Shown here one piece after another: positions 36,861 to 56,448 of a DNA stretch of 64,000 bases (position 1 is the first letter of the stretch; each line of letters opens with the position of its first letter). A model generated the notes under the pieces. That model made no database searches and was not told where the DNA came from. It saw only the letters and a program-made list of their open reading frames with translations. This DNA is from an uncultured Myxococcales bacterium (GTDB taxonomy: Bacteria; Myxococcota_A; UBA9042). A program made the translations under genes and the position numbers. The stretch spans positions 372,001 through 436,000 of the forward strand of contig CAIMLR010000007.1 in assembly GCA_903842345.1 (NCBI GenBank), given 5' to 3'.

Positions 36861-36977
36861 CGTCCAGGGCGCGCGGCGCACCGCGGCGGAAGCATCAAGC
36901 GGACGCTCGCGTCACCCGGCGACGTAGTCAGCGCGGCCTGAACCCGCCAACAATCTCTGCTTTGCTTGGGAATCTTC

Positions 36978-37021
36978 GGAGCCAACACGCGGATTTGAAC
37001 CGCGGACCTACTGATTACGAA
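36978..37021 (-). other. tRNA-Thr(CGT) 3'-half fragment, candidate attachment site
   Basis: The 44 nt read on the minus strand as the last part of tRNA-Thr(CGT): anticodon loop TTCGTAA, 3' anticodon stem TCAGT, variable AGGTC, a perfect T-arm (CGCGG-TTCAAAT-CCGCG), acceptor strand TGTTGGC, discriminator T and CCG instead of CCA. The 5' half (expected to start GCCAACA) is missing: after 37021 the sequence is unrelated. A 3' tRNA fragment is what an element integrating into a tRNA leaves at its far end, and accessory genes start directly after it. The intact tRNA was not found in the window. Confidence 0.6.
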
Positions 37022-37145
37022 GCGTAGGTGAAGCCCAATGATGTCGCGCACTTCTCAAGCATATCAATCACCTAAGCGGCATGACGCGGCTGCTAGCGGC
37101 CGGGACAGGCAAGTGCCGTTGGGGGATGTTGGGGGAGGTCCAAAT

Positions 37146-37400
37146 ATGAACGCGCAAACATCTGCGGCGTTGTTGATAGTCGGGGATACATCCGGTATTA
37201 CTGGCAAGTGCCATGGATTGCTGTCGGGGGACGTCTCTAGAATCCACGGAGACATCACAGGGTTGTGGGGTGACGTGAGCCTGCTGCGCGGTGATGTTTC
37301 GGGTCTGACCGGGTGCGCCACATTCGTTTTTGGATATGCAACAGGAGTGAGAATCAGGATCACGACCGAGATGGGAAATATCGTCGATTTCGGGCATTAA
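37146..37400 (+). CDS. Small heptad-repeat (GDVSGLx) protein, predicted beta-solenoid
   Basis: 84 residues. GGGGGAGG lies 7 nt before the ATG, an unusually strong ribosome site. From residue 13 the protein is a run of seven-residue units: GDTSGIT, then after one longer unit GDVSRIH, GDITGLW, GDVSLLR, GDVSGLT. The DNA of the units differs at many codons while the peptide pattern holds, which suggests selection on the protein. Such short Gly-Asp-hydrophobic repeats would coil as a small beta-solenoid. No known function. It is the first gene after the tRNA fragment and the only plus-strand gene of the island's left part. Confidence 0.6.
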   Translation: MNAQTSAALLIVGDTSGITGKCHGLLSGDVSRIHGDITGLWGDVSLLRGDVSGLTGCATFVFGYATGVRIRITTEMGNIVDFGH

Positions 37401-42038: not shown

Positions 42039-43127
42039 CTACACGCTATACCAAGGGCCGAGTTCCTCGATTACCTTCGACGATATCCGGGCCAGATCAG
42101 AACCCGGAGGAAACCAGCTGATATTTCCCTGCGAATGTTGCATCGAGACCGGCTTACGTGTTGCCATACAGTACCACCCGGCGACGCTCTTTGGGTCGAC
42201 GCTGCACATACAGGGAAGGATGTCGTTCCTATCCAGTTGCTGCATGGCATACGAGCGGCCATCCTCGACGTCGGCGGAGGCGATGATCTGGTCAAGCCGG
42301 TCCCGCCACCACAGCGGATCCGAAGTGTCAGCGAAGGGTCCGGCGTACAGCGCAGGCGCGAAAAGGTTCTGTATTGGAGCCTCTCCGAACACAGACTCGT
42401 CGATGTTCAGGTAGCTCGCAGCCGCAACCTTGTTCACAAACAAGCCAGGGAACTGGAGGAGCGAATTGAAGATCCACGTTCCGATTGGGCCGTAGTGCTT
42501 GGGATGAACCTTCGACTGTGGCTGCCCCAAGACGGAGGCTGCGAACCGTTGGTCACCCGAAAGGTAGAGAGAAACACGATGCGTGACGTCCGGGTCCCCA
42601 ACGACCGTTGCGATCGTATCGGAAAGGTCTCGCGGTCGGTCCCCAAGCGGCACCTGCTCCAATTCGCGCAGGCGCGCGCGCACGTCGCTGAAGCCGGCGC
42701 AAAGGCGGTAGGCTTGGCGAGCCATCGCGGGCCAGTTCCCAAATTCAATGAGAAGTGTTCCGGTTCCTGGCGCACCTTCGGTGCGTTGCACCGGATCCGG
42801 CTTGACTCCGCTCCCATAGCTCACGACCGGGATACCTTCTCGCTCGAACACTTTTGCCACGACCGTTTCAGAGAGACCGACAAAGCCTTTGGTCGCAGAC
42901 AAATCCATGTCAGAGATAACCATCAAGATGGTGCCCTGCGCAAGTTCGCTCGCGAGCTCCGCTTTGAGGCGATCCTCGTAGGTCCCAAGTAAGTGTCCTG
43001 GCTCGTGGCGAAACTTTCGTGCATTTGCAAGCGGCGCCAGCTGGGAGATGATTTCCGCGATGAGCGCCTGTCGCGTTCCGTCGGGATCATCCTCAAACAG
43101 GAGTACGGTTGGTAGTGTGTTCGTCAT
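42039..43127 (-). CDS. Receiver-domain (response-regulator-like) protein with unknown C-terminal domain
   Basis: 362 residues from the ATG at 43127, which overlaps the upstream TGA as ATGA. The N-terminal ~130 residues resemble a CheY-type receiver: acidic pocket LLFEDDPDG, a candidate phospho-acceptor Asp in ILMVISDMDLSATKG, and VVSYGSGVK near the conserved Ser/Thr and Lys positions. The C-terminal ~220 residues have no known DNA-binding fold that I can see; they contain WIFNSLLQFPGLFVNKVAAA and a CMCS..WYC segment. It would receive phosphate from, or bind, the kinase-like ATPase encoded immediately upstream. Confidence 0.7.
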   Translation of the reverse strand: MTNTLPTVLLFEDDPDGTRQALIAEIISQLAPLANARKFRHEPGHLLGTYEDRLKAELASELAQGTILMVISDMDLSATKGFVGLSETVVAKVFEREGIPVVSYGSGVKPDPVQRTEGAPGTGTLLIEFGNWPAMARQAYRLCAGFSDVRARLRELEQVPLGDRPRDLSDTIATVVGDPDVTHRVSLYLSGDQRFAASVLGQPQSKVHPKHYGPIGTWIFNSLLQFPGLFVNKVAAASYLNIDESVFGEAPIQNLFAPALYAGPFADTSDPLWWRDRLDQIIASADVEDGRSYAMQQLDRNDILPCMCSVDPKSVAGWYCMATRKPVSMQHSQGNISWFPPGSDLARISSKVIEELGPWYSV

Positions 43128-45403
43128 TTCGACTTTCCTCCGAACGGTACAGTCAGCTCGAGCCACGTGGAGAACCCGGCGGGTGCATCGCGCAACTCGA
43201 TTGAACCGCCGATCTCCAGAACCATCTGCCGAACGAGCGACAATCCCAGGCCCATGCCAGTCCCCAGCGGCCCGGAAACGCGGGTCGTTGTGCTATACAT
43301 CGGATCCCAAATTCGCGCACGATTTTGAGGCTCGATACCGATTCCTGTATCCAAGACGTCGAGCGTATGCGCTTTGCTGTTAGACTGGCCGCGGAAGACA
43401 ATCTCTCGTCGACCCGTTGAGTTCTCTGTTGCAAGAATGGCCTTCATGGCGTTGGTGTACAGGTTCATCACGATGCCTGAGTAGATGACGACCGGCATCT
43501 GGGGAACCATAACGTCGTCTCCCAGGTCAATCGTCGTTGCAATTTCGCGCGAGCGTGCAAAACTCGCGAGTCTGTCGACCACTCGGCGAATCTGCGGCGC
43601 CGCAGCGAACGAAACGCTGCGGAAAGTGTGGGTCGCGTCGACGAACGAAGTGGTGTAGCTCATGATCGATGAGAACGATTCGAAGCTATCGGCCAACTCT
43701 GCGGCGGGCGCGTTCAACTCTGGATGGGTCTTGGCCAGTTCTCTGACTATTCGAAGCGCCTGCTCCAGGGACGAACTCATGCGACGTGCTTCGTGAGTCA
43801 AAAAACCGGCAACTACTCCAAGTGAACTCATGGCTTCGAGCTTTTGTCTGGATTGCCGATCATAGGTCTCGGCTTTTTCGATGTCGTCCTGTATGCCAGT
43901 TACCTTGGTCACCAACTCGTCTTTCTCAGCCTGCGAGAGGGTCGGTCGCTTCTTGATCCAGTCCAGGACCTTGCGCACGTCCTTCCGAGCCTTCTCGGTC
44001 TTTTCCTCGGCCTGTTCGTGTTTTTCGTCCAGAAGGCGCGCCTTGTCTAAACTCGCAAGATTCTCGAGCGCAAATCGAATAGCCTCAATCAAGTTGGCCA
44101 TCGCCGCATTTTGCAAGAATCCTTCACGATCCATGGACGGCGTCAAGTCATGTTGCGCCTTCGAGACAGTCGAAGGCGACGACTCCACAAAGACAGCACC
44201 GATCATCTGATGATTTGTAGGAATATTCAGAGCTGGATTGAGTGCCGGATCGCTGGCGACCCGTCGGTCGAACGGTAGTAGTGTGCGCGCCAGTTGACTC
44301 CGCCAATCTCGTCGATTGTGCGCATGGTCTTCAGCAAGCGATAGCCAGTCATTACCCTCGAATCCATACGGGAACACGCGAAAGCCATGATCAACAACCG
44401 CGATGCCGTGATTCGCTTTGATCCATTTCCATCCATCTCTACCTTCCACTTCTTTTGCCTGGAGCATCCCCTTGCGCTTTGGAAAGAAGCGCAAGTCGGC
44501 ATACAGACCTGCAGCGATTGAGTTTGGAAAATCGAGTTCCACGACGACGGGAACGCCGTCCTCGAACGATGTCGTGATCGAGAGCTTTTCCCGAACAAGT
44601 TTCACCCTCACGGTGGCGCGCGCGTGCCCGAGGATCAGAGAAGCCAAGTCTTGCTCTGCGTCGGTTGGCCCAACTCCGGGAAGGAGGGCTTGGAAGCCAG
44701 GATCAGCTTCCGACTTGGCGGGTTTTTGCGCAGCCATGTGCCCGCGATCAAGTCCCGACAGGGGCGAAACAATAGTCAGAACCTTGGTCCGGAACGAGCG
44801 ATCCGTGACAAAGTCCAGTGCCTGGGCGAGGCGGGTGATTTTCAGGATCGTCCCGGTCTTTGCATTGGGTGGGGCGGAGTAGACTTCAAACGGGACCTCA
44901 ACTTGGGCGAGGTTCCGGCTTTGATCGATTTTGTTCCAATCAAAATGAGCGTAAAGCCGCGTCATTTTCCCAGTCTTCGGGTCGTGCGCAGTGGTGGAGA
45001 GACTCAGCTCCGATCCCAAATAGCGGACCGCAAAACGACCGATTCCTTTTTGGCCGGTGAGGCGCCGCTTGAACCGGCGCGAGGCGCGGTCAGCCATCTT
45101 GCCTGCCGTCGCGATCCGCATCCAACGTGCTTCAAATTCATCGCGGGTCATGCCGTGCCCATCATCGATGATCGTGATCGACTTCGACTTTTCGTCGACT
45201 TGCAACTCGCATGTGACTGCGTCGGCGTCGTACGCGTTCTTGATAAGCTCGACAACCGCCACTTCGGCGCTCGCGACCAGCCGCTCGCCGAGCTCTTCGA
45301 GGAGCCGCGAGTCAGACAAGAACGCAAACACTCCGTGTTCCAACAACGTGACGTCGGTTCCGTTCGCTATACCCGTAGAACGGCTCGGCTTGGGGCTCAT
45401 CAT
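43124..45403 (-). CDS. Double-GHKL protein: Hsp90/MORC-like ATPase fused to a histidine kinase
   Basis: 759 residues from the ATG at 45403 (ATGA overlap with the methyltransferase stop). The N-terminal GHKL domain has ELIKNAYDAD (52-61), IIDDGHGM (78-85) and GQKGIGRFAVRYLG (117-130), the pattern of Hsp90/MutL/MORC ATPases. A coiled coil follows (LDEKHEQAEEKTEKARKDVR). Then comes a histidine-kinase core: H-box FLTHEARR (His near 536), N-box NLYTNAMKAIL, DTGIGI and GTGMGLGLSLVRQMV. So it carries two ATP-binding folds. GHKL ATPases of the MORC type next to DNA methylases and receiver proteins have been described as restriction-modification-like systems by comparative genomics. No sensor or membrane segment is present; the stimulus is probably internal. 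Confidence 0.8.
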   Translation of the reverse strand: MMSPKPSRSTGIANGTDVTLLEHGVFAFLSDSRLLEELGERLVASAEVAVVELIKNAYDADAVTCELQVDEKSKSITIIDDGHGMTRDEFEARWMRIATAGKMADRASRRFKRRLTGQKGIGRFAVRYLGSELSLSTTAHDPKTGKMTRLYAHFDWNKIDQSRNLAQVEVPFEVYSAPPNAKTGTILKITRLAQALDFVTDRSFRTKVLTIVSPLSGLDRGHMAAQKPAKSEADPGFQALLPGVGPTDAEQDLASLILGHARATVRVKLVREKLSITTSFEDGVPVVVELDFPNSIAAGLYADLRFFPKRKGMLQAKEVEGRDGWKWIKANHGIAVVDHGFRVFPYGFEGNDWLSLAEDHAHNRRDWRSQLARTLLPFDRRVASDPALNPALNIPTNHQMIGAVFVESSPSTVSKAQHDLTPSMDREGFLQNAAMANLIEAIRFALENLASLDKARLLDEKHEQAEEKTEKARKDVRKVLDWIKKRPTLSQAEKDELVTKVTGIQDDIEKAETYDRQSRQKLEAMSSLGVVAGFLTHEARRMSSSLEQALRIVRELAKTHPELNAPAAELADSFESFSSIMSYTTSFVDATHTFRSVSFAAAPQIRRVVDRLASFARSREIATTIDLGDDVMVPQMPVVIYSGIVMNLYTNAMKAILATENSTGRREIVFRGQSNSKAHTLDVLDTGIGIEPQNRARIWDPMYSTTTRVSGPLGTGMGLGLSLVRQMVLEIGGSIELRDAPAGFSTWLELTVPFGGKSK

Positions 45404-46770
45404 TCGATTTCCGATACGGTCGATAGGAAACAGTTGACCTGTTTGACCTCGACCTTGCAAAAGCCGTTCGAGAGGTTAGCCAAATGATCGCGGAACGCGA
45501 AGCTGCGAAACTTCTCCACGAACTCTGGGGAGCGGTCAATACCAACGTCGTGAATGCCGCACACGGCGCCGACCGCGACTGCGCCGACTTCGTTCACATA
45601 TGCCTTGGGGCCTTCGCCGACGAATCCGCTCGCATACAGGATGTCGCTGATCGGGGGAAGTTTGAACTGCCACCAGTCTACTCTTGCTCGACAGGTTGCG
45701 GTGTTTCTCAGGGAAGCAGCGACTTGATCCAGATATACGCGTAGTGGGCTACTCTGAGCGCGCTCAGGATTGACGAGCCAACAGCGTAGGCCGATTTGAA
45801 CGAACGCGGTCTCGAACAGGTCATTGGTCAGCGAGAGCTCAGTCGAAGAAAGAAGACGAAGTGATGTGACACACGGCAGCACATCGAGATTACGCTCGAG
45901 TCCGTGGCGGAGTCTGTCATGCTCTGTGAGTATGAATGCGCGCTGGCTACCAGAGCTTAGGCCTCGTTGAGCGAACGGGCGACCGTTCTGCCGGGCTGAG
46001 TAGCCGAGGATTGCATTGCCGGCAGCTGCTTTTCGAGACTCCGGCTTGATGGCACCTTTGGAATCAATCACAAAAGTTCGCCAGTTTTGACGAACCGCAC
46101 GCTTGTCGATGACCGTCACGCAGGATGTCGTTAGGACGCGGTCGAAAACGTCAAATGAAAATCGGTAGACATCAACCGACCAGCCAGACCGCTCGATGTA
46201 ATCGCGAAGCGGCTGACCGGCCGGTCGCGAGACCCACTCCTGCGGGACCAGCATGGCGACAACACCGTCTGCATTCGTTTTGAGAAGGCCAAGCCAAAGA
46301 AAGTAGATGTAGGCATTGGAAAGCCCGCTTGGGCGCACTCCGCTTCGCGCTGCGATTGCTGACGAGACGCGCGCCCGCCAATCGTCCGTGATGTCGTGAT
46401 GGCGAACATATGGAGGATTCCCGATCGCCAAATCGTAGAGCCGATCTTCTGGATCACTGAACGCGCAGCCATTCACGATGCTAGCAGAGTCCGACAGCTT
46501 TGCACTCGGGAGCCGCGCAGCGTCGATTTCAAACCCAAAATAGCGCACATAGGTCCCGGCGCGGGCAAACCGGCCGTCGCCCGCTCCAGGATCGAAGACA
46601 TCGGCGAAGTGGTCGCGGTATCGATGGGCGACATTCCAGACAATGGTGACTGCCGAATGCGGCGTGTCGACTTGGCAGCGGTCGAGATAGTCCCGGTTCG
46701 CATCCAAGCCGTACCCGGCCGTGGCGGCCTGGTCACGATCCAGCGATGGGGCCTCTTCTCGATCGTCCAT
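45400..46770 (-). CDS. N6-adenine-type DNA methyltransferase (Eco57I/TaqI-like)
   Basis: 456 residues taking the ATG at 46770; an upstream in-frame ATG at 46821 exists and neither has a clear ribosome site. Motif I is DPGAGDGRFA (60-69, SAM binding) and motif IV is NPPY (118-121, catalysis) in LAIGNPPYVRHHD, the order of gamma-class N6-adenine methylases. YIYFLWLGLL and VAMLVPQEWVSRP are typical next elements. The C-terminal ~250 residues would include the target-recognition part. No restriction endonuclease is fused or obvious beside it. First gene of the coupled operon with the double-GHKL ATPase. Confidence 0.85.
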   Translation of the reverse strand: MDDREEAPSLDRDQAATAGYGLDANRDYLDRCQVDTPHSAVTIVWNVAHRYRDHFADVFDPGAGDGRFARAGTYVRYFGFEIDAARLPSAKLSDSASIVNGCAFSDPEDRLYDLAIGNPPYVRHHDITDDWRARVSSAIAARSGVRPSGLSNAYIYFLWLGLLKTNADGVVAMLVPQEWVSRPAGQPLRDYIERSGWSVDVYRFSFDVFDRVLTTSCVTVIDKRAVRQNWRTFVIDSKGAIKPESRKAAAGNAILGYSARQNGRPFAQRGLSSGSQRAFILTEHDRLRHGLERNLDVLPCVTSLRLLSSTELSLTNDLFETAFVQIGLRCWLVNPERAQSSPLRVYLDQVAASLRNTATCRARVDWWQFKLPPISDILYASGFVGEGPKAYVNEVGAVAVGAVCGIHDVGIDRSPEFVEKFRSFAFRDHLANLSNGFCKVEVKQVNCFLSTVSEIE

Positions 46771-46897
46771 GTTGCTCGTCGTGCCCCGGCGGTGAATGCC
46801 CCGTCGCGGCGGGCGAGCCATCGTACAGGCCCGCGGGGCGCCGGGTCAAATACCCACTCGTCGCGCCGGATGGCGTCACCAAGCGCGAGCTGTTGGC

Positions 46898-49434: not shown

Positions 49435-49506
49435 TCTGCAGCATACGGGAACGTTAGGAAGTCGAACCCGGACAAAGACTGATTGATCCGTTTTCGCGAG
49501 GGAAAA

Positions 49507-52500
49507 ATGAGGCTTACGAAAGGCACTCTGATCGGGATGTTCACTTTCACGCTGCTCACGGCGTTATTTTCGACCGCTCCTGCGTTCGCTGAGGATTGTG
49601 ACCCCGACGTCGACAACTGCGAAGAAGGCCAGTCCGAGGAGACCGCGGTCGACAAAGCTGCCTCGGGTCTTTCCCAACTGTATTCGGAAGGATTCTCTGG
49701 GGGCTACACTTGGCAGGTCGATATTATTTGCCCACCGTTTTGTGTTGGAAATAGCACGACCAACTACGAATCCCCATCAGCTGCCACATATGCGAGCGAC
49801 GACAAGACAAAGGCCCCGTCAAACCCGTTTGACCCTTCAACGTGGCTCCAATTCCACCCTAACGACCCTCCATATTCTGTCCAACCGACTCCCATCGGAT
49901 GGGCTGCTCCCCAGGCGAAGTCCGGTGAGGATATTAAGTTCACATCCTCGGGGGCGGAGGTGGCGGAGTCGATTCGCAATACCATGAAGGACAAGTCGGG
50001 CAATTTCGACCCAGGCTCGGTTCAAACCGGTAACGGCTTTGCACCGGTCGACAAAACACAGGTAAACGCTGTCAAGCTCGGTGCAGACGGCAAGGCCATG
50101 AATTACTCCCCGTTCGATCCTAAGGGCACGTCGCCGAGCAATAATCCGACAGATTCAATCGTGCAGGCGGTTACCGACACGAGTGTGGATGTTTACAAGG
50201 CTGTTAAGGCGGTGCCGGGAATGCCTTCTTCGCCGATCGTCGACCAGGTGTTGAAACTCCCGAATTTTTTGAACGGGCGGGGCTCGCCGAGCCCGGACAC
50301 GTCGGCAGACGGCAGCACAGATCCAATCGACGCGGGAACCGGTGAGTATCGAAATACCTGGACCGATCTGCAACTAGACGACGTCGGTCCGTCGATCGTA
50401 GTCCAAAGAACGTATCGCAGTCGTCAGACTCGGACCGGTATTCTCGGGCACAACTGGAATTTTTCTTACGATCAACATTTGATTAACTTGGTGTCTGCGA
50501 TCAAGCCGAATGTGACCGGCGGTATTGGGTGTCAGACTCCCCACTTTCGGTGGGTTGACGGTGTTGGTAATATCATTGATTTTATTGACGTGGACGGAGG
50601 TAGTCACATCCAGTCGGTGCCCGACGGTGCGACAAAATTGACGTTCGGCGCTGACGCGTTCGCTACTATTCAAAAACCCGACGGACAATCGTTCGGGTTT
50701 GATGAGGCAGGGAACCTGGTCTGGGTTTCAGACCGCAACGGAAACAAAACTGTCGTCTGGTGGTCAAAGGGAATCTGCCCCTCAATCGACCAGAACTGGC
50801 GCCTATCGAAGGTCAGCAGCCCTCATCATGCCGTCAAACTGGAATACGATTGCGGGACCGGTTTTCTGAGTGAGATTTACGTGGAGGGGCAGAAAGACTC
50901 GACTTTGACCAGTTACTACGTCGCTCCCGAAAATGCCGCCGGGACCTTGCTCTCCGCCACAAGCCCTACCGGGGTTACCGAATCTTATGAATACGCCCAA
51001 GCGCCATACAGCGGTCCCGTGGTGCCGAACGATCAGATCCCAACACCAGAGGCGCGGATCGTGTGTGATTCCGCATGTGAGGCATTCAATCCGGACTCCG
51101 TTTGTGGCGCACAAACTTCAGCAGCGATCGAAATGACTTGCGGTGGAGCCTTGGAGGACTGCCCTGCTTCATGCCAGCAATCCTGCGACTCTCAATGTGG
51201 AGACAACATAGATGTCATGGCATGCGCCATTAAATGCGCGGCCCCGAGCCTTCAGCCGTCAGCGCAAAGCGGTGGCATGACGGGTTGCAAGGCCTACGCA
51301 ATTGGGAACAAGGGGCACTGCGAGGCGCGTGTTGACCAAATTTGCGGTGGAGCTTGCTTGATTGCTGGCATCGACAATTGTGATCCCAAAACCATTCAGG
51401 GCGGCTCATTCAAAGGCGATCCTGTCGGCTTCGAAGAAAATTTCTATGCCGCGATTGACGCGGTTGGATCCGCGCTGTTTTTCACCGATTATTGGACCGA
51501 GAGCCACCAAGAGTGGGAGTGCCTGGGTTGCTACTGGGCAGGCAAGTTTTGCGGGAAGGACAACTGTCAAGAGGGGCGCACCTGCAAGGCAGATTGCATG
51601 GCGGGCCTGCACGGTGCCGTGGATCCATGCGACGCGAACGATCCACCGACCCAGGATGTATGTGCAGACATCGCGAACGAAGATAAGTGCAACGTGGCTG
51701 CTGAAGCGAAATGTATTGGAGCGTGCGCAGAGCCGTGCGTGAAGGCGTGCGTTGAGCAATGTCCGGCCTCGTGTAAAACCGTCATGGCTCAATGTGTGAC
51801 AATGGCAACAAGCCCCGTGACTGGCCCGCAGCTTCATGCGCAATGCGTCGACCAATGTATGTCCAATCACGGGCAGATCCAGGGCCAGGACTTCTATGGA
51901 CACGCTGCGGACTTGAAATACAACCTAACCGCTATCAAAGATGGGAATGACAAAGTGTGGCTTTCAAACGTGTACGGAATGGACGTCTTCTCGCCGTCGT
52001 TCGACCGAGTCACACAACAGTATTTCGGCGAAGCATATGGTCCTAGTGCTAAGCCATTCGTTGAAATTCGCTATGTGGATCTGAAAAATGGCACCTATCC
52101 GAGAGACGCGGATCTCGTAACGGTAATGCATGAATCACCAAACAGCTACTCGGTTTGCCCCACGGATGATACCGATCTCCCGTCGCCGCTAAGTTTCGGT
52201 CCGCCCGCTGCCTCCTCGAAGGATATGGGCGACACCAGCGACGTGGCCTTCGCGAGCATGACCGTGGATGCAGCGGGTAATCAGTGGACGTTCATGTCTG
52301 ACCGCTTTGGGCGCGTTCTGCGTCGAGTGAACCCACACTTCAAATCCAAAGCGAACGGCGCGACCAACAGCGACCATACCGCGATAATTATCAACTATGA
52401 CGATGCGGGGCGTCCGCTCGGATATCAAACGGAATTCGGCGACCGATATTGCAATTCATACTCAGGGGCGAATTGGTTTCCGAGCTTTGTGACCCACTTG

Positions 52501-55500
52501 CCTGCACAGGGTGTCCCGAATGCCCAGGCGTACGTTTGGACGATCTACACTTGGTCGCCCCAAGGCGACTTGCTCTTTAAGTCACAGCCAAATTCTTTTC
52601 AAGGTGCGATCCAGATTGATCGTGACCCGTTCGGCAACGTCGACCTTGTTACGCGCTGGGTTGACGACGGTAGCAGCTTTCCGCTCACGACGAGTTATAC
52701 CCGTCTCTCGGATGGCTCAGGAAGAGTGGCCACCATCACGAAAAACGACGGCGATAGTCGAACGTTCAGCTATTCGGACTCAGACGGCCTCTGGCAGACC
52801 GCTACGTGGAACGGATCGCGCACCCTCACGTCAAGTCGGGATGCGCTAGGACATTTGACCGGCGTGTCAGGAGCAGGTGCGAGCAAATGGTCGGCAGACG
52901 TCGATGCACGCGGAATGCCAAATTGGATTTTCCAGCGAGAAGGGACGGCGCAGGAGTTGGAAGAATTCTATACCTACGATCCGGCGACTGGCCGAGAAAT
53001 GGACATCCTGGCGCCTGACCGGGACACAAAACCCACCTGGTTTGCCTGGGGTGGCAAAGCGTCGTTGAGAACTATCTCCCTTGACGGGCCGCAGTCGAAT
53101 ACCGTCTGTTACGCCTACGATGAAAGACGGCTGCTCGCCGCGGTCTATGTAAGCGGAGGGACGGTCACGGAATATACGCGAGATTCACGCGGCGACGTCG
53201 TTGCTATTTCTCGAGGACTCAAGTCGCATCCGTATGCGTGGGACCCGCAGTGGGCCGACGCCACGTGCGTTCCGGGTGGACTCGGGCCACAACAGATTTA
53301 CTGGTCTGCTGTCCGGATGAACTCTGGTCAGATCCTTTCGATTCAAGACGGTGCTCCCGCCGGCAAGGCCATTGGCTACGACGGATTTGGCAGAATGATC
53401 TCGGTCCAGCAGGAACCGTGCGTCGCTGGAAACTGTGCGTCTGGATTGGAGCGTCCTGAACTCCGGTTCATTTATGACGAGGCTGACCGCGTTTTGTGGT
53501 CCGCGATTTACCGTCTGTCGCCGCAGCTTGCTGGTGGACCGGCAGATCCGACTGCTATCCCGGTTTCGACTGACCCTGCACTTGCAGGCGCGACGAACGT
53601 CAAATACGACTTCCTGGGACGGGCGACATCGGTTTCCAAGCTCTTGTTCACGGACTTGGCAGACGGTACCCGACAGCAGCAGTCCAATGTCTCCGAGTCG
53701 TATGAGTATTCCGACCTGATCAAGACTGTCACCCATGTGGATGCCTCGGGGCATTCCCATTTGAAGATGTTTGACGTGTTCGGCCAGTTGGTACATGAGT
53801 CGAACACCAGCACGAACTCCGTCTTGGCGATTGACCATGTCTTTTCGACGGACGGACTCATTGAGACGACAACGGCTGCAGGCCCGAGCGCTTCGATGGA
53901 ACGGAAAACGAAGCGATCGCCGACAGGCCGACTGCTGTCCATAGAAACCACAGGTGGAAAGGAAAAGGTTACGTACGCCTACGACATCCGCGACAGGGTG
54001 TCGACGGTGAATGAGGGCGTTCGGACGTTCACTCGAGCCTATGACTTTTTGGGGCGTCTGGCATCTACCGCGCGAGTATCGCCGTCTGGCGCCAAACTGC
54101 CGCATGAAAATCTGACATACAATGTCAACGGCCAACTCATGACGTACGAGGACGGGAACGGCAACGGGACCACGTGGAACTATGACGACCTTGGGCGCGT
54201 CGTGAGTGCAATTTATCCCGATGGCACACAAATTTCCTTCCCTGGGTATCTGGGCGGGACCGCGTTGCCGTTAAGCCTCACGTCTCGTGACGGAGATCAC
54301 CAGACGTTCGCCTACGACGAGCAAGGTAGACTCCTATCAATCAACAGTGATGGCACGGGGGCGACATACACGAACGCAACCACGACGATCAATTACACAT
54401 ATGGCATCTTTGGAATCGCCTCGGCGGACTCGTCCACGTCTACGCCAAGTGACGCAGTGCAGCTTGGTTTTGGTTACGACTCCCTCGGACGGATGGTGCG
54501 TGAATCGAACTCGCTCTTTCCAGGTGAAGACCTAGGGCACACATGGACGCCGACGGGGCTGCCCGCGTCGCTTGATTTGGGGACAGCGGTCAGCATGTCG
54601 TGGTTTCGCGACGAGATTGGGCGTGTTACCGATGTGACTACTCTCGGAGTCACCATCCAGCACTGTGACTACCCGGGCTTCGGTGGCCCGAGCGCCTGTA
54701 CGCGCTCGAACGGCGTATCAGAATCGTACGGGTACGACGCGGACGGCCGAGTCTCCCAGTACAGCGCCGTCTCACCGGTAGGTCCCTTGCTGTCCATGTC
54801 CGTTTTCCGGGACGCACAGGACCTCGTTTCGCGTACCGATCAGCAGTTTGACTTTTCTGCGTCAGCCGTTCCTGCCTCCGATGTCTTTGCATATGACGAC
54901 TACGGACGCCTTGGAGCTGAGGATCACGGCTTGGTGAACCCGACTTCTACGAGTTTCTCGCCGTCCGTGCTGACGACCAACGCCTCTGCCAAGTTTGAAG
55001 GATTTAGTTACGATGCCGCAGAAAATATTGCGACCAAGCAGGAAGGAGCGAATCCGCCATTTCAAAGTCAATGCGGGCTGGACAATCGATATGAACTATT
55101 TGGAGGGCACGTATTCTCGACGGTGGGTGGCGCGCTGACCCAAGCGCCGGGCACACCGCAGTTCGAGTACGACGGGCTGCAGCGGTTGGTGCAGGCGTCG
55201 GTTCTGTCCGATGGCACTCCAAACCCGACACATTTTGTTTACGATGGCTTAGGGCGCCTCGCAGCGTACGACACGCCAAGCGCCGACCCGCATGGCTCGC
55301 CGACGCGGACTCTGTTCCAGTACGCACGCGGCGCGGTGCTTCGCGAGGTGGTGGGTACGAGTACCAAGACATATGTGCCCGGACGTCTCGGGTTGCCGAT
55401 ATTCATGTGGGGGGCTCATGGCGCTCAGGCCCATCTGCACCCGATGTCGAACGGAAGGGTCGGTTTTGCCTCGGACACGACCGGTGGTTTGCTCGAGCGA

Positions 55501-56448
55501 TATGCATACACCGCCTACGGCGAAACGTCATTTCTTGACGCGGGCGGTACGGGTTTGGCGAAGTCCTCGTTCGGGTTCGACTTGAACGTTCAAGGGCAAC
55601 CGTACGTGCCGACGTTGGGGCTGCACCGGTTCGGGGCGCGGTGGTACTCGCCGACCCTTGCGCGGTTTCTAACGCCCGATCCAGTCGGGTACATCGGTGG
55701 CCCCAATTTCTTCGCGTACGCGGACGACGTGCCGACATGGTTCGGCGATCCTTGGGGTTTGGGATCGAAGGCGGCGGAGAACCCGCTCAACCAGGTCTCG
55801 ACAATTCGGTGGCATCAGAATTTCGACGGCACCTACTCAATGTTTACCTTGGGCGACCTATTGGCGCCGCTAGGCGACTTGCTCTATGCCTCCCTGGGAG
55901 GCCCGTCCGACGGAACCATGAACATCATTGGTGTCGTAGGGCTCGTCGCGCCAGCGGGTGCGGCGTTGAACGCCGCACGTGCGCCGGCCGCCTTTGCTGA
56001 GGCAGCCGAATTTGCAAAAGCTGCGGAAACGGTCGAGACAACAACGATACCACGACCAGCACTCTCCGCGCCCGCGGACGCAGCGGTTCGGTACGGCCCA
56101 ATGAATCCCGGACCTCTGCCAACAGTGGTCGCGGATACGTTTCGCAGCGGAACCTACACGGCTAGGACGTCTAGCGAGGCTACAACCTTGTATCGTGCAT
56201 ACGGAGGCACCGCGGGGGAAGTCGGCGGCTACTGGACACGTTCCGCACCGGCGGGGCCGCTGCAGGCGCAAATCGATCTCGCCCTCCGACCTGAATGGGG
56301 AAACACAGCCACCTCGATGAGCCAAATCAACGTTCCAGCGGGAACAGTGATTTACGAAGGCGCTGCGGCGGGTCAGGGGGGCCCCTTCGTCGGCGGTGGT
56401 AGTCAGGTTTACATTCCTCACGTTGATCCTTCATGGGTGGTCCGATGA
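49507..56448 (+). CDS. Rhs/YD-repeat polymorphic toxin with Sec signal and Cys-rich insertion
   Basis: 2313 residues from the ATG at 49507 (GAGGGA upstream). The order is: Sec signal peptide (TLLTALFSTAPAFAED); Rhs N-terminal part with a DPIDAGTGEYRNTWTDLQ start; a Cys-rich insertion with more than 30 Cys at about 515-785; many YD/Rhs repeats (YDDLGRVVSAIYPDGT, YDFLGRATSV, YGYDADGRVSQYS); and the Rhs core RFGARWYSPTLARFLTPDP near 2040-2060, ending FGDPWGL, the self-cleavage type motif. The last ~225 residues are unlike the repeats and are the toxin tip: a hydrophobic segment, then LYRAYGGTAGEVGGYWTRS, WGNTATSMSQINVPAGTVIYEG. R/S/E-like landmarks hint at an ADP-ribosyltransferase fold, unproven. 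No PAAR/VgrG gene is nearby, so delivery seems Sec-dependent rather than by type VI secretion. Confidence 0.85.
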   Translation: MRLTKGTLIGMFTFTLLTALFSTAPAFAEDCDPDVDNCEEGQSEETAVDKAASGLSQLYSEGFSGGYTWQVDIICPPFCVGNSTTNYESPSAATYASDDKTKAPSNPFDPSTWLQFHPNDPPYSVQPTPIGWAAPQAKSGEDIKFTSSGAEVAESIRNTMKDKSGNFDPGSVQTGNGFAPVDKTQVNAVKLGADGKAMNYSPFDPKGTSPSNNPTDSIVQAVTDTSVDVYKAVKAVPGMPSSPIVDQVLKLPNFLNGRGSPSPDTSADGSTDPIDAGTGEYRNTWTDLQLDDVGPSIVVQRTYRSRQTRTGILGHNWNFSYDQHLINLVSAIKPNVTGGIGCQTPHFRWVDGVGNIIDFIDVDGGSHIQSVPDGATKLTFGADAFATIQKPDGQSFGFDEAGNLVWVSDRNGNKTVVWWSKGICPSIDQNWRLSKVSSPHHAVKLEYDCGTGFLSEIYVEGQKDSTLTSYYVAPENAAGTLLSATSPTGVTESYEYAQAPYSGPVVPNDQIPTPEARIVCDSACEAFNPDSVCGAQTSAAIEMTCGGALEDCPASCQQSCDSQCGDNIDVMACAIKCAAPSLQPSAQSGGMTGCKAYAIGNKGHCEARVDQICGGACLIAGIDNCDPKTIQGGSFKGDPVGFEENFYAAIDAVGSALFFTDYWTESHQEWECLGCYWAGKFCGKDNCQEGRTCKADCMAGLHGAVDPCDANDPPTQDVCADIANEDKCNVAAEAKCIGACAEPCVKACVEQCPASCKTVMAQCVTMATSPVTGPQLHAQCVDQCMSNHGQIQGQDFYGHAADLKYNLTAIKDGNDKVWLSNVYGMDVFSPSFDRVTQQYFGEAYGPSAKPFVEIRYVDLKNGTYPRDADLVTVMHESPNSYSVCPTDDTDLPSPLSFGPPAASSKDMGDTSDVAFASMTVDAAGNQWTFMSDRFGRVLRRVNPHFKSKANGATNSDHTAIIINYDDAGRPLGYQTEFGDRYCNSYSGANWFPSFVTHLPAQGVPNAQAYVWTIYTWSPQGDLLFKSQPNSFQGAIQIDRDPFGNVDLVTRWVDDGSSFPLTTSYTRLSDGSGRVATITKNDGDSRTFSYSDSDGLWQTATWNGSRTLTSSRDALGHLTGVSGAGASKWSADVDARGMPNWIFQREGTAQELEEFYTYDPATGREMDILAPDRDTKPTWFAWGGKASLRTISLDGPQSNTVCYAYDERRLLAAVYVSGGTVTEYTRDSRGDVVAISRGLKSHPYAWDPQWADATCVPGGLGPQQIYWSAVRMNSGQILSIQDGAPAGKAIGYDGFGRMISVQQEPCVAGNCASGLERPELRFIYDEADRVLWSAIYRLSPQLAGGPADPTAIPVSTDPALAGATNVKYDFLGRATSVSKLLFTDLADGTRQQQSNVSESYEYSDLIKTVTHVDASGHSHLKMFDVFGQLVHESNTSTNSVLAIDHVFSTDGLIETTTAAGPSASMERKTKRSPTGRLLSIETTGGKEKVTYAYDIRDRVSTVNEGVRTFTRAYDFLGRLASTARVSPSGAKLPHENLTYNVNGQLMTYEDGNGNGTTWNYDDLGRVVSAIYPDGTQISFPGYLGGTALPLSLTSRDGDHQTFAYDEQGRLLSINSDGTGATYTNATTTINYTYGIFGIASADSSTSTPSDAVQLGFGYDSLGRMVRESNSLFPGEDLGHTWTPTGLPASLDLGTAVSMSWFRDEIGRVTDVTTLGVTIQHCDYPGFGGPSACTRSNGVSESYGYDADGRVSQYSAVSPVGPLLSMSVFRDAQDLVSRTDQQFDFSASAVPASDVFAYDDYGRLGAEDHGLVNPTSTSFSPSVLTTNASAKFEGFSYDAAENIATKQEGANPPFQSQCGLDNRYELFGGHVFSTVGGALTQAPGTPQFEYDGLQRLVQASVLSDGTPNPTHFVYDGLGRLAAYDTPSADPHGSPTRTLFQYARGAVLREVVGTSTKTYVPGRLGLPIFMWGAHGAQAHLHPMSNGRVGFASDTTGGLLERYAYTAYGETSFLDAGGTGLAKSSFGFDLNVQGQPYVPTLGLHRFGARWYSPTLARFLTPDPVGYIGGPNFFAYADDVPTWFGDPWGLGSKAAENPLNQVSTIRWHQNFDGTYSMFTLGDLLAPLGDLLYASLGGPSDGTMNIIGVVGLVAPAGAALNAARAPAAFAEAAEFAKAAETVETTTIPRPALSAPADAAVRYGPMNPGPLPTVVADTFRSGTYTARTSSEATTLYRAYGGTAGEVGGYWTRSAPAGPLQAQIDLALRPEWGNTATSMSQINVPAGTVIYEGAAAGQGGPFVGGGSQVYIPHVDPSWVVR

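Follow-up and report, generated by a model that had tools for sequence, protein, structure and literature searches.

P0001, an open reading frame of 84 codons built on a seven-residue repeat, most likely encodes a small cargo protein of beta-rod form carried by a mobile island, either drawn from a class of phage heptad proteins or converged on it. In the fuller reading, to which we give a probability of about 0.4, P0001 is genuine and translated, a small protein in which strand-turn units of seven residues would stack as a short beta-solenoid rod that binds a partner. On its own the ORF is of modest interest; a second look is warranted since its repeat is common to a large class of phage proteins, the fold and partners of which are directly testable, the class having a clear architecture and several members beside phage DNA-metabolism genes. 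P0001 lies in a 64,000-nucleotide stretch of DNA, here called the window, which corresponds to C7:372001-436000 in a genome of 5.85 Mb and 50 contigs.

The repeat gene at the edge of an island

The features on which the argument draws are given below in window coordinates, or in contig coordinates where these are prefixed C7.

36971-37021, minus strand: 3'-end fragment of tRNA-Thr(CGT), which is the island's left att-like repeat (46/51 match to the intact tRNA region)
37134-37139, plus strand: GGAGGT ribosome-binding site, 6 nt 5' of the P0001 ATG (read from the sequence)
37146-37400, plus strand: P0001, heptad-repeat ORF of 84 residues, stop codon included (from the ORF list)
37182-37226, plus strand: GDTSGIT and GKCHGLL, two weaker units, the second followed by an additional S
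37227-37310, plus strand: four core heptads, GDVSRIH, GDITGLW, GDVSLLR and GDVSGLT
37311-37352, plus strand: two degenerate heptads, GCATFVF and GYATGVR
37353-37397, plus strand: C-terminal 15 residues of P0001, IRITTEMGNIVDFGH, with no match to the main phage tail
37582-40371, minus strand: AAA_16-like P-loop ATPase of 929 residues, the next island gene, convergent to P0001 (29.9 bits, below the Pfam cut-off of 32.6)
C7:496479-496985: tyrosine integrase (PF00589) beside the intact tRNA-Thr
C7:497138-497213, minus strand: intact tRNA-Thr(CGT)

P0001 opens with an ATG at 37146, ends with a stop codon at 37398-37400 and has a product of 84 residues. An alternative in-frame start at 37038 would give 120 residues; we favour 37146 because of the GGAGGT motif, and the strong ribosome site reported in the preliminary description is borne out. 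That description had also placed an 84-residue heptad-repeat protein here, with its four core units recurring every 21 nt, and coordinates, length and units all proved exact, the core units starting at 37227, 37248, 37269 and 37290. Read in order, the protein consists of MNAQTSAALLIV, GDTSGIT, GKCHGLL(S), the core heptads as listed, GCATFVF, GYATGVR and IRITTEMGNIVDFGH, and its repeat region comprises eight units of seven or eight residues, four core and four weaker flanking ones. The C-terminal 15 residues stay in the seven-residue register (IRITTEM, GNIVDFG), the Gly columns of the family continue there, and this end is possibly two further decayed units.

The peptide pattern is kept while the codons vary, as had been proposed from the letters alone: of the 42 aligned residue pairs of the core units 22 are identical, 17 of them with different codons. 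At the first, second and third codon positions the core units show 22, 11 and 30 mismatches. This wobble count alone leaves the strand undecided, because one antisense frame has the same third codon position; the plus strand is picked by heptad position 4, since the codons found there in the four core units (TCT, ACA, AGC and TCG) give Ser or Thr only in the plus frame. Core-unit Ser is encoded by both TCN (TCT, TCG) and AGY (AGC) codons. A three-heptad DNA pattern matches the window twice, whereas 100 dinucleotide shuffles give no match, and the four tandem motif units of P0001 compare with 1 in 200,000 residue shuffles that reached even two; the bare Gly period (a run of six) was reached by 118 of 200,000. 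No sigma-70-like promoter was found on the plus strand between 36900 and 37700. We infer that P0001 is translated.

An integrative island of ~88 kb lies between the tRNA-Thr repeats, called because of a 51-bp att-like repeat (46 of 51 positions common to 36971-37021 and C7:497133-497182), the intact tRNA-Thr, the adjoining integrase and a step in GC content, which is ~67-68% outside the island, with 3-kb averages of 54-65% between the two repeats. The island border suspected in the preliminary description is thereby substantiated. P0001 starts 124 nt inside the left end and is the first likely gene there. The ATPase that follows it drew no match from PADLOC or NCBIfam at the limits applied (PADLOC was run on P0001's neighbours only), and P0001's neighbours are, rather than replication genes, this AAA ATPase and a restriction-like pair. 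Each of the four other genus genomes searched contains matches to the tRNA-Thr end; when eight of the matching loci were scanned, contig ends cutting some short, two held an intact tRNA-Thr and six did not, which suggests that the tRNA-Thr(CGT) 3' end is an integration hot spot. Within the window itself ARAGORN reports no tRNA, and Rfam gives no match.

The island gene scan took in 44 of 50 ORFs chosen. Among other island genes, a protein of 778 residues at 43124-46821 (minus strand) combines an N-terminal HATPase_c_3 domain with a C-terminal histidine-kinase-type ATPase; its HATPase_c_3 part weakly matches a BbrUII/HgiDII restriction enzyme model, it adjoins an Eco57I-type methylase, and the two form a possible, unusual restriction-modification pair. 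An RHS/YD-repeat protein of 2321 residues is encoded at 49483-56448 (plus strand).

Phage proteins that share the heptad

The heptad G-[DN]-[VC]-[ST]-x-[LI]-x is common to P0001 and a set of phage proteins. The preliminary description had called for a search for similar short GDVSGLx proteins, and this search was productive: at least 120 viral-contig stretches contain a four-heptad DNA pattern, in phage proteins, and 94 a P0001-shaped one. We read 155 distinct ORFs from loci so collected, P0001 itself and some unrelated repeat proteins included. Phage members usually begin with an N-terminal module (alignment consensus MKKxLxR....LYH..DG.K..G), continue with the heptads and end in one of two tails, the main one GDLDxCEITxEERxxGIDIxDLI and the other IPxxxRPCxxxDWV. 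A simple motif count gives 2 to 36 heptads per protein. The make-up of 2109 units, chosen by a motif that itself requires G at position 1 and S, T or A at position 4, is in motif order D 66% or N 26%, V 47% or C 42%, S 69% or T 30%, G 51%, and L 61% or I 36%, and position 3 separates two unit chemistries, a Val type and a Cys type. When 30 class members were compared with Pfam, NCBIfam and PHROGs, only generic matches were returned. Several contigs carry two to four heptad genes side by side (L107, L111, L174); these loci and L121 hold two to four tandem paralogues each, and close tandem copies can differ in length with the same ends, for example 151 and 207 residues (L111, L121).

Outside the phages, relatives of P0001 are scarce. 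Three tandem heptads, with one mismatch allowed, occur in one of 377 sampled genomes of the same phylum, namely its own, the reversed pattern occurs in none of the 377, and the pattern with one mismatch is absent from four other genomes of the genus. A close homologue of the ORF itself was found in none of the order, phylum, viral, phage, plasmid and genome collections, and searches of Pfam (E 10), PHROGs (E 0.1) and NCBIfam (E 0.001) with P0001 gave no match. An order-level search gave matches at E up to 1 in 17 of 22 genomes, its own included; those other than P0001 were taken as low-complexity noise (best E 0.002). Scanning viral contigs with P0001 identified 10 relatives among 36 stretches. 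Four matches came from the genome collection: L041 and L042 are heptad proteins of Patescibacteria-type MAGs, L043 was set aside as a single unit in a plainly unrelated protein, and L044, an ORF of a Myxococcales MAG, was rejected as a relative, its repeat GDIDGLVGDVPQLV (or VRDVPQLV) being a different, 14-residue unit of similar look. Eight records matched in the phage collection, of which one is credible (MW202691, a hypothetical protein, 41% identity over residues 11-81, E 2e-5); the other seven, Aeromonas phage proteins at E 0.09-0.6, were discarded. The plasmid collection gave one match to P0001, at E 0.8. Autotransporter genes among the plasmid matches of a phage member had looked like support for a beta-helix and were dropped because the single Salmonella stretch inspected has the match on the strand opposite the annotated gene. 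One phage protein (L156, identical to L213) resembles the two degenerate units of P0001 and nothing further, and a scan built on that unit pair returned three loci, none with P0001's end. A text search of the open literature for heptad unit strings, or for heptapeptide repeat with beta-helix and phage, found nothing relevant.

How far P0001 itself belongs to this class was judged on repeats, ends and neighbourhood. Its four strict units, one of which has Ile at position 3, stand beside four weaker units, and in a blastp search against a small family set its 29 best rows besides its own show 40-63% identity over 46-80 residues, led by 46% over 69 residues (E 9e-15) and 56% over 59 residues (E 3e-14). 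Against a profile of the main tail, which stands for that tail type only because its motif filter kept 30 of 113 tails (27 distinct rows), members score a median of 53.3 bits and at lowest 29.5; residues 63-84 of P0001 score -1.0 bits, a value that 458 of 5000 shuffles equal or better, and the main tail is absent. Alternative choices of its end fare no better, residues 69-84 being equalled by 1420 and residues 56-84 by 424 of 5000 shuffles. Residues 1-27 reach 15.2 bits against a model of the N-terminal module (118 rows reduced to 102 after dropping 13 locus prefixes and duplicates), a score that none of 5000 shuffles attains, with the matched columns heptad-like and not those of the module. 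The idea that the ends of P0001 are diverged phage caps fails for the main tail and is at best conjectural for the N-terminus. Judged by its repeat sequence, P0001 is a putative divergent relative of the phage class, not a certified member.

The neighbourhood was counted over 117 loci, some on the same contig, after 14 had been dropped (three own copies, three not from IMG/VR and eight with other-looking repeat proteins). Adjacent genes run co-directionally with the phage heptad gene in 133 of 181 cases. Among 96 scanned of 296 chosen neighbours, with no background set, we found the following families, most of them in one or two copies: helicase, ERF, Rad52, AAA_24 and Sak4-like, YqaJ, RadC, beta clamp, DNA polymerase A, primase-polymerase, gyrase B and NinB-like; of 105 PHROG families 25 were listed, one of which is virion structural. 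In MW202691 a putative single-stranded DNA-binding protein is encoded ~1.6 kb from the heptad gene, within one gene run. The preliminary description had pointed to the neighbours of similar proteins: several phage members lie beside replication or recombination genes, a tendency of the class and not a rule, and P0001, next to its ATPase and restriction-like pair, does not share it.

Codon-level selection in homologues had been put forward as a further check. P0001 has no orthologue for such a comparison because the other 376 sampled genomes of the phylum hold no pattern relative, and the check therefore bears on the phage relatives only. We compared 66 pairs of phage loci over at least 60 aligned codons, ungapped; the pairs are non-independent, and at least four loci pairs share a contig (L070/L112, L092/L173, L136/L140 and L155/L171). 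Synonymous divergence is saturated in 17 pairs, with dN of 0.15-0.41, dN/dS lies below 0.5 in 33 and between 0.5 and 1 in 7, and the distant phage pairs show protein-level retention of the motif. In the remaining nine pairs dN/dS exceeds 1 and dS is in every case below 0.1; these close pairs may reflect shuffling of units, given the ungapped comparison, or fast change at exposed positions.

Fold of the heptad repeat

The "tiny beta-solenoid" of the preliminary description finds weak support in predicted structures. An AlphaFold2 model of P0001 (43 rows) places a strand in each core heptad at a mean pLDDT of 50.5, and a model of the 137-residue phage protein L080 (29 rows) runs strands through the repeats, with two short tail helices, at pLDDT 63.5; both confidences are low, and AlphaFold2 is described, in the available text of PMC11795689, as biased towards beta-solenoids on repeat sequences. 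That warning applies here only in part, because the confidence is low and the P0001 repeats have diverged.

Coiled coils, of which phage tail needles and fibritin are examples, are also built on heptads, with positions lettered a to g. P0001 could form such a coil, trimeric or dimeric, with Val/Cys at a, Leu/Ile at d, Gly at f and Asp/Asn at g. The 3-4 hydrophobic spacing fits, and when the family sequence profile was compared with solved structures the best matches were coiled coils, led by the tail needle gp26 (E 2e-9) and including sigma-1 and fibritin. A coiled coil, however, needs no Gly, and in the 43-row family alignment (A3) Gly is invariant in six heptad-spaced columns and reaches 90% or more in another four, while the family Gly column corresponds to Gly in 4 of 13 gp26 heptads, a contrast that is partly built in because the family rows were found with Gly-demanding patterns. 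The AlphaFold2 models likewise put strands and no helix in the repeats, subject to the bias just mentioned. We regard a coiled coil as quite unlikely, and on these models a beta-solenoid, though unproven, would be the likelier fold for P0001.

Origin, function and comparison with known systems

Two other accounts of where P0001 comes from have to be weighed against a translated phage-related protein. Its heptad might have arisen independently, with the likeness to phage proteins lying only in repeat chemistry: similarity is confined to the repeats, the main-tail test having failed and the N-terminal score coming from heptad-like columns, short repeats converge easily, and heptad proteins of no relation to the family score against it too. 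Convergence would nevertheless have to produce agreement at five motif positions over four tandem units, of which shuffling so rarely yields two, as well as the identity of 40% or more to the best phage or MAG rows, and we consider it possible, if doubtful. A truncated, non-functional copy of a phage heptad gene, decaying at the island end, is a serious rival given the missing main tail, the single occurrence among the 377 sampled genomes and the degenerate outer units; P0001 also abuts the att site, and a terminator-like site falls within the ORF at 37310-37326. Decay sits poorly with 84 open codons behind a strong ribosome site and with motif residues kept despite codon change, Ser being written in both codon families, and such a remnant seems to us unlikely.

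The remaining alternatives concern function. A role as a structural element, one of the two suggested in the preliminary description, is possible. A DNA mimic that blocks DNA-binding proteins, hinted at in the preliminary description, would draw on the Asp or Asn present in every core heptad and on the precedent of MfpA, a pentapeptide-repeat protein described as a DNA mimic (PMC8145042, in its available text). The 57 residues of the P0001 repeat region carry a net charge of -1 and the complete protein one of -2, and 141 related repeat regions have a median of -5.3 per 100 residues (range -16.3 to +4.8); we reject the idea because this charge is too small, and hold it to be very improbable. 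A precursor peptide of a radical-SAM-modified natural product was considered when 17 of 30 phage-family proteins matched the NCBIfam TigB model (NF047709) at E up to 0.01, the row shown scoring 30.4 bits against a cut-off of 70; the available portion of a paper on a related RiPP system (PMC9062424) does not mention TigB. P0001 itself has no NCBIfam match at E 0.001 and none of the 50 listed radical-SAM places of the genome falls on the island, so the TigB identity was rejected and this origin is scarcely credible.

We therefore return to a small translated protein, and infer that P0001 is a divergent copy of a phage heptad protein, without a phage-type tail, that arrived with the mobile element. 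Its seven-residue strand-turn units would stack into a short beta-solenoid rod, held by the Gly-Asp/Asn turn and by buried Val/Cys and Leu/Ile, and the rod would bind a partner inside the cell through exposed side chains at heptad positions 5 and 7. An intracellular, partner-binding role is suggested because phage members have replication and recombination neighbours, a variable number of repeats and, in some cases, tandem duplications. Some pentapeptide-repeat proteins bind partners in DNA metabolism or phage-host conflict, and by analogy a partner of this kind might be the likeliest for P0001, though this is a guess. A bolder and rather improbable extension is that G-[DN]-[VC]-[ST]-x-[LI]-x marks an unrecognised 'heptapeptide-repeat' class of beta-solenoids, a counterpart of the pentapeptide repeats, encoded by phages beside replication and recombination genes, that would have a conserved C-terminal docking tail and bind host or phage DNA-metabolism enzymes, P0001 being a captured, tail-less island version.

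Among known proteins the closest in kind are the phage heptad proteins, for example UOF80481.1 (podovirus ctkAd229, MW202691, hypothetical), with tandem heptads in a small single-gene protein as in P0001; phage heptad proteins usually carry the LYH..DG.K..G module and a tail, whereas P0001 is without the main tail. The nearest solved structure of the phage-member model, itself of low confidence, is the bactofilin beta-helix 6rib_A, which ranked first in VIA-align (Z 8.6, rmsd 2.6, 84 residues aligned) at 12% identity and with a Z near the range that VIA-align calls a common arrangement; Foldseek with the same L080 model gave no match at E 0.001 in PDB or BFVD. The P0001 model aligned with six chains, bactofilin not among them, at a best Z of 4.6 and at Z 3.5 with a pentapeptide-repeat protein, matches too weak to use. 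The coiled coils of gp26 and T4 fibritin share the hydrophobic spacing of the family heptads, but in gp26 few of the heptads have Gly at the family Gly column, as counted above.

The grass ice-binding beta-roll (PF21300) offers another short-coil roll, with matches below the cut-off in 8 of 26 phage records, their location in the heptad gene partly checked; none of 27 records or genomes reaches the cut-off, 7 of 14 control genomes match below it, and P0001 is unmatched. The pentapeptide-repeat proteins (PF00805; MfpA, Qnr) embody the same idea of a solenoid built from a short repeat, with a period of five against the seven of P0001. P0001 lacks the eight or more contiguous five-residue repeats that define membership of PF00805 and matches no Pfam family up to E 10. 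The pentapeptide unit, given as [STAV][DN][LF][STR][G] in the available text of PMC8145042, nevertheless resembles G-[DN]-[VC]-[ST]-G, to which the heptad adds two residues.
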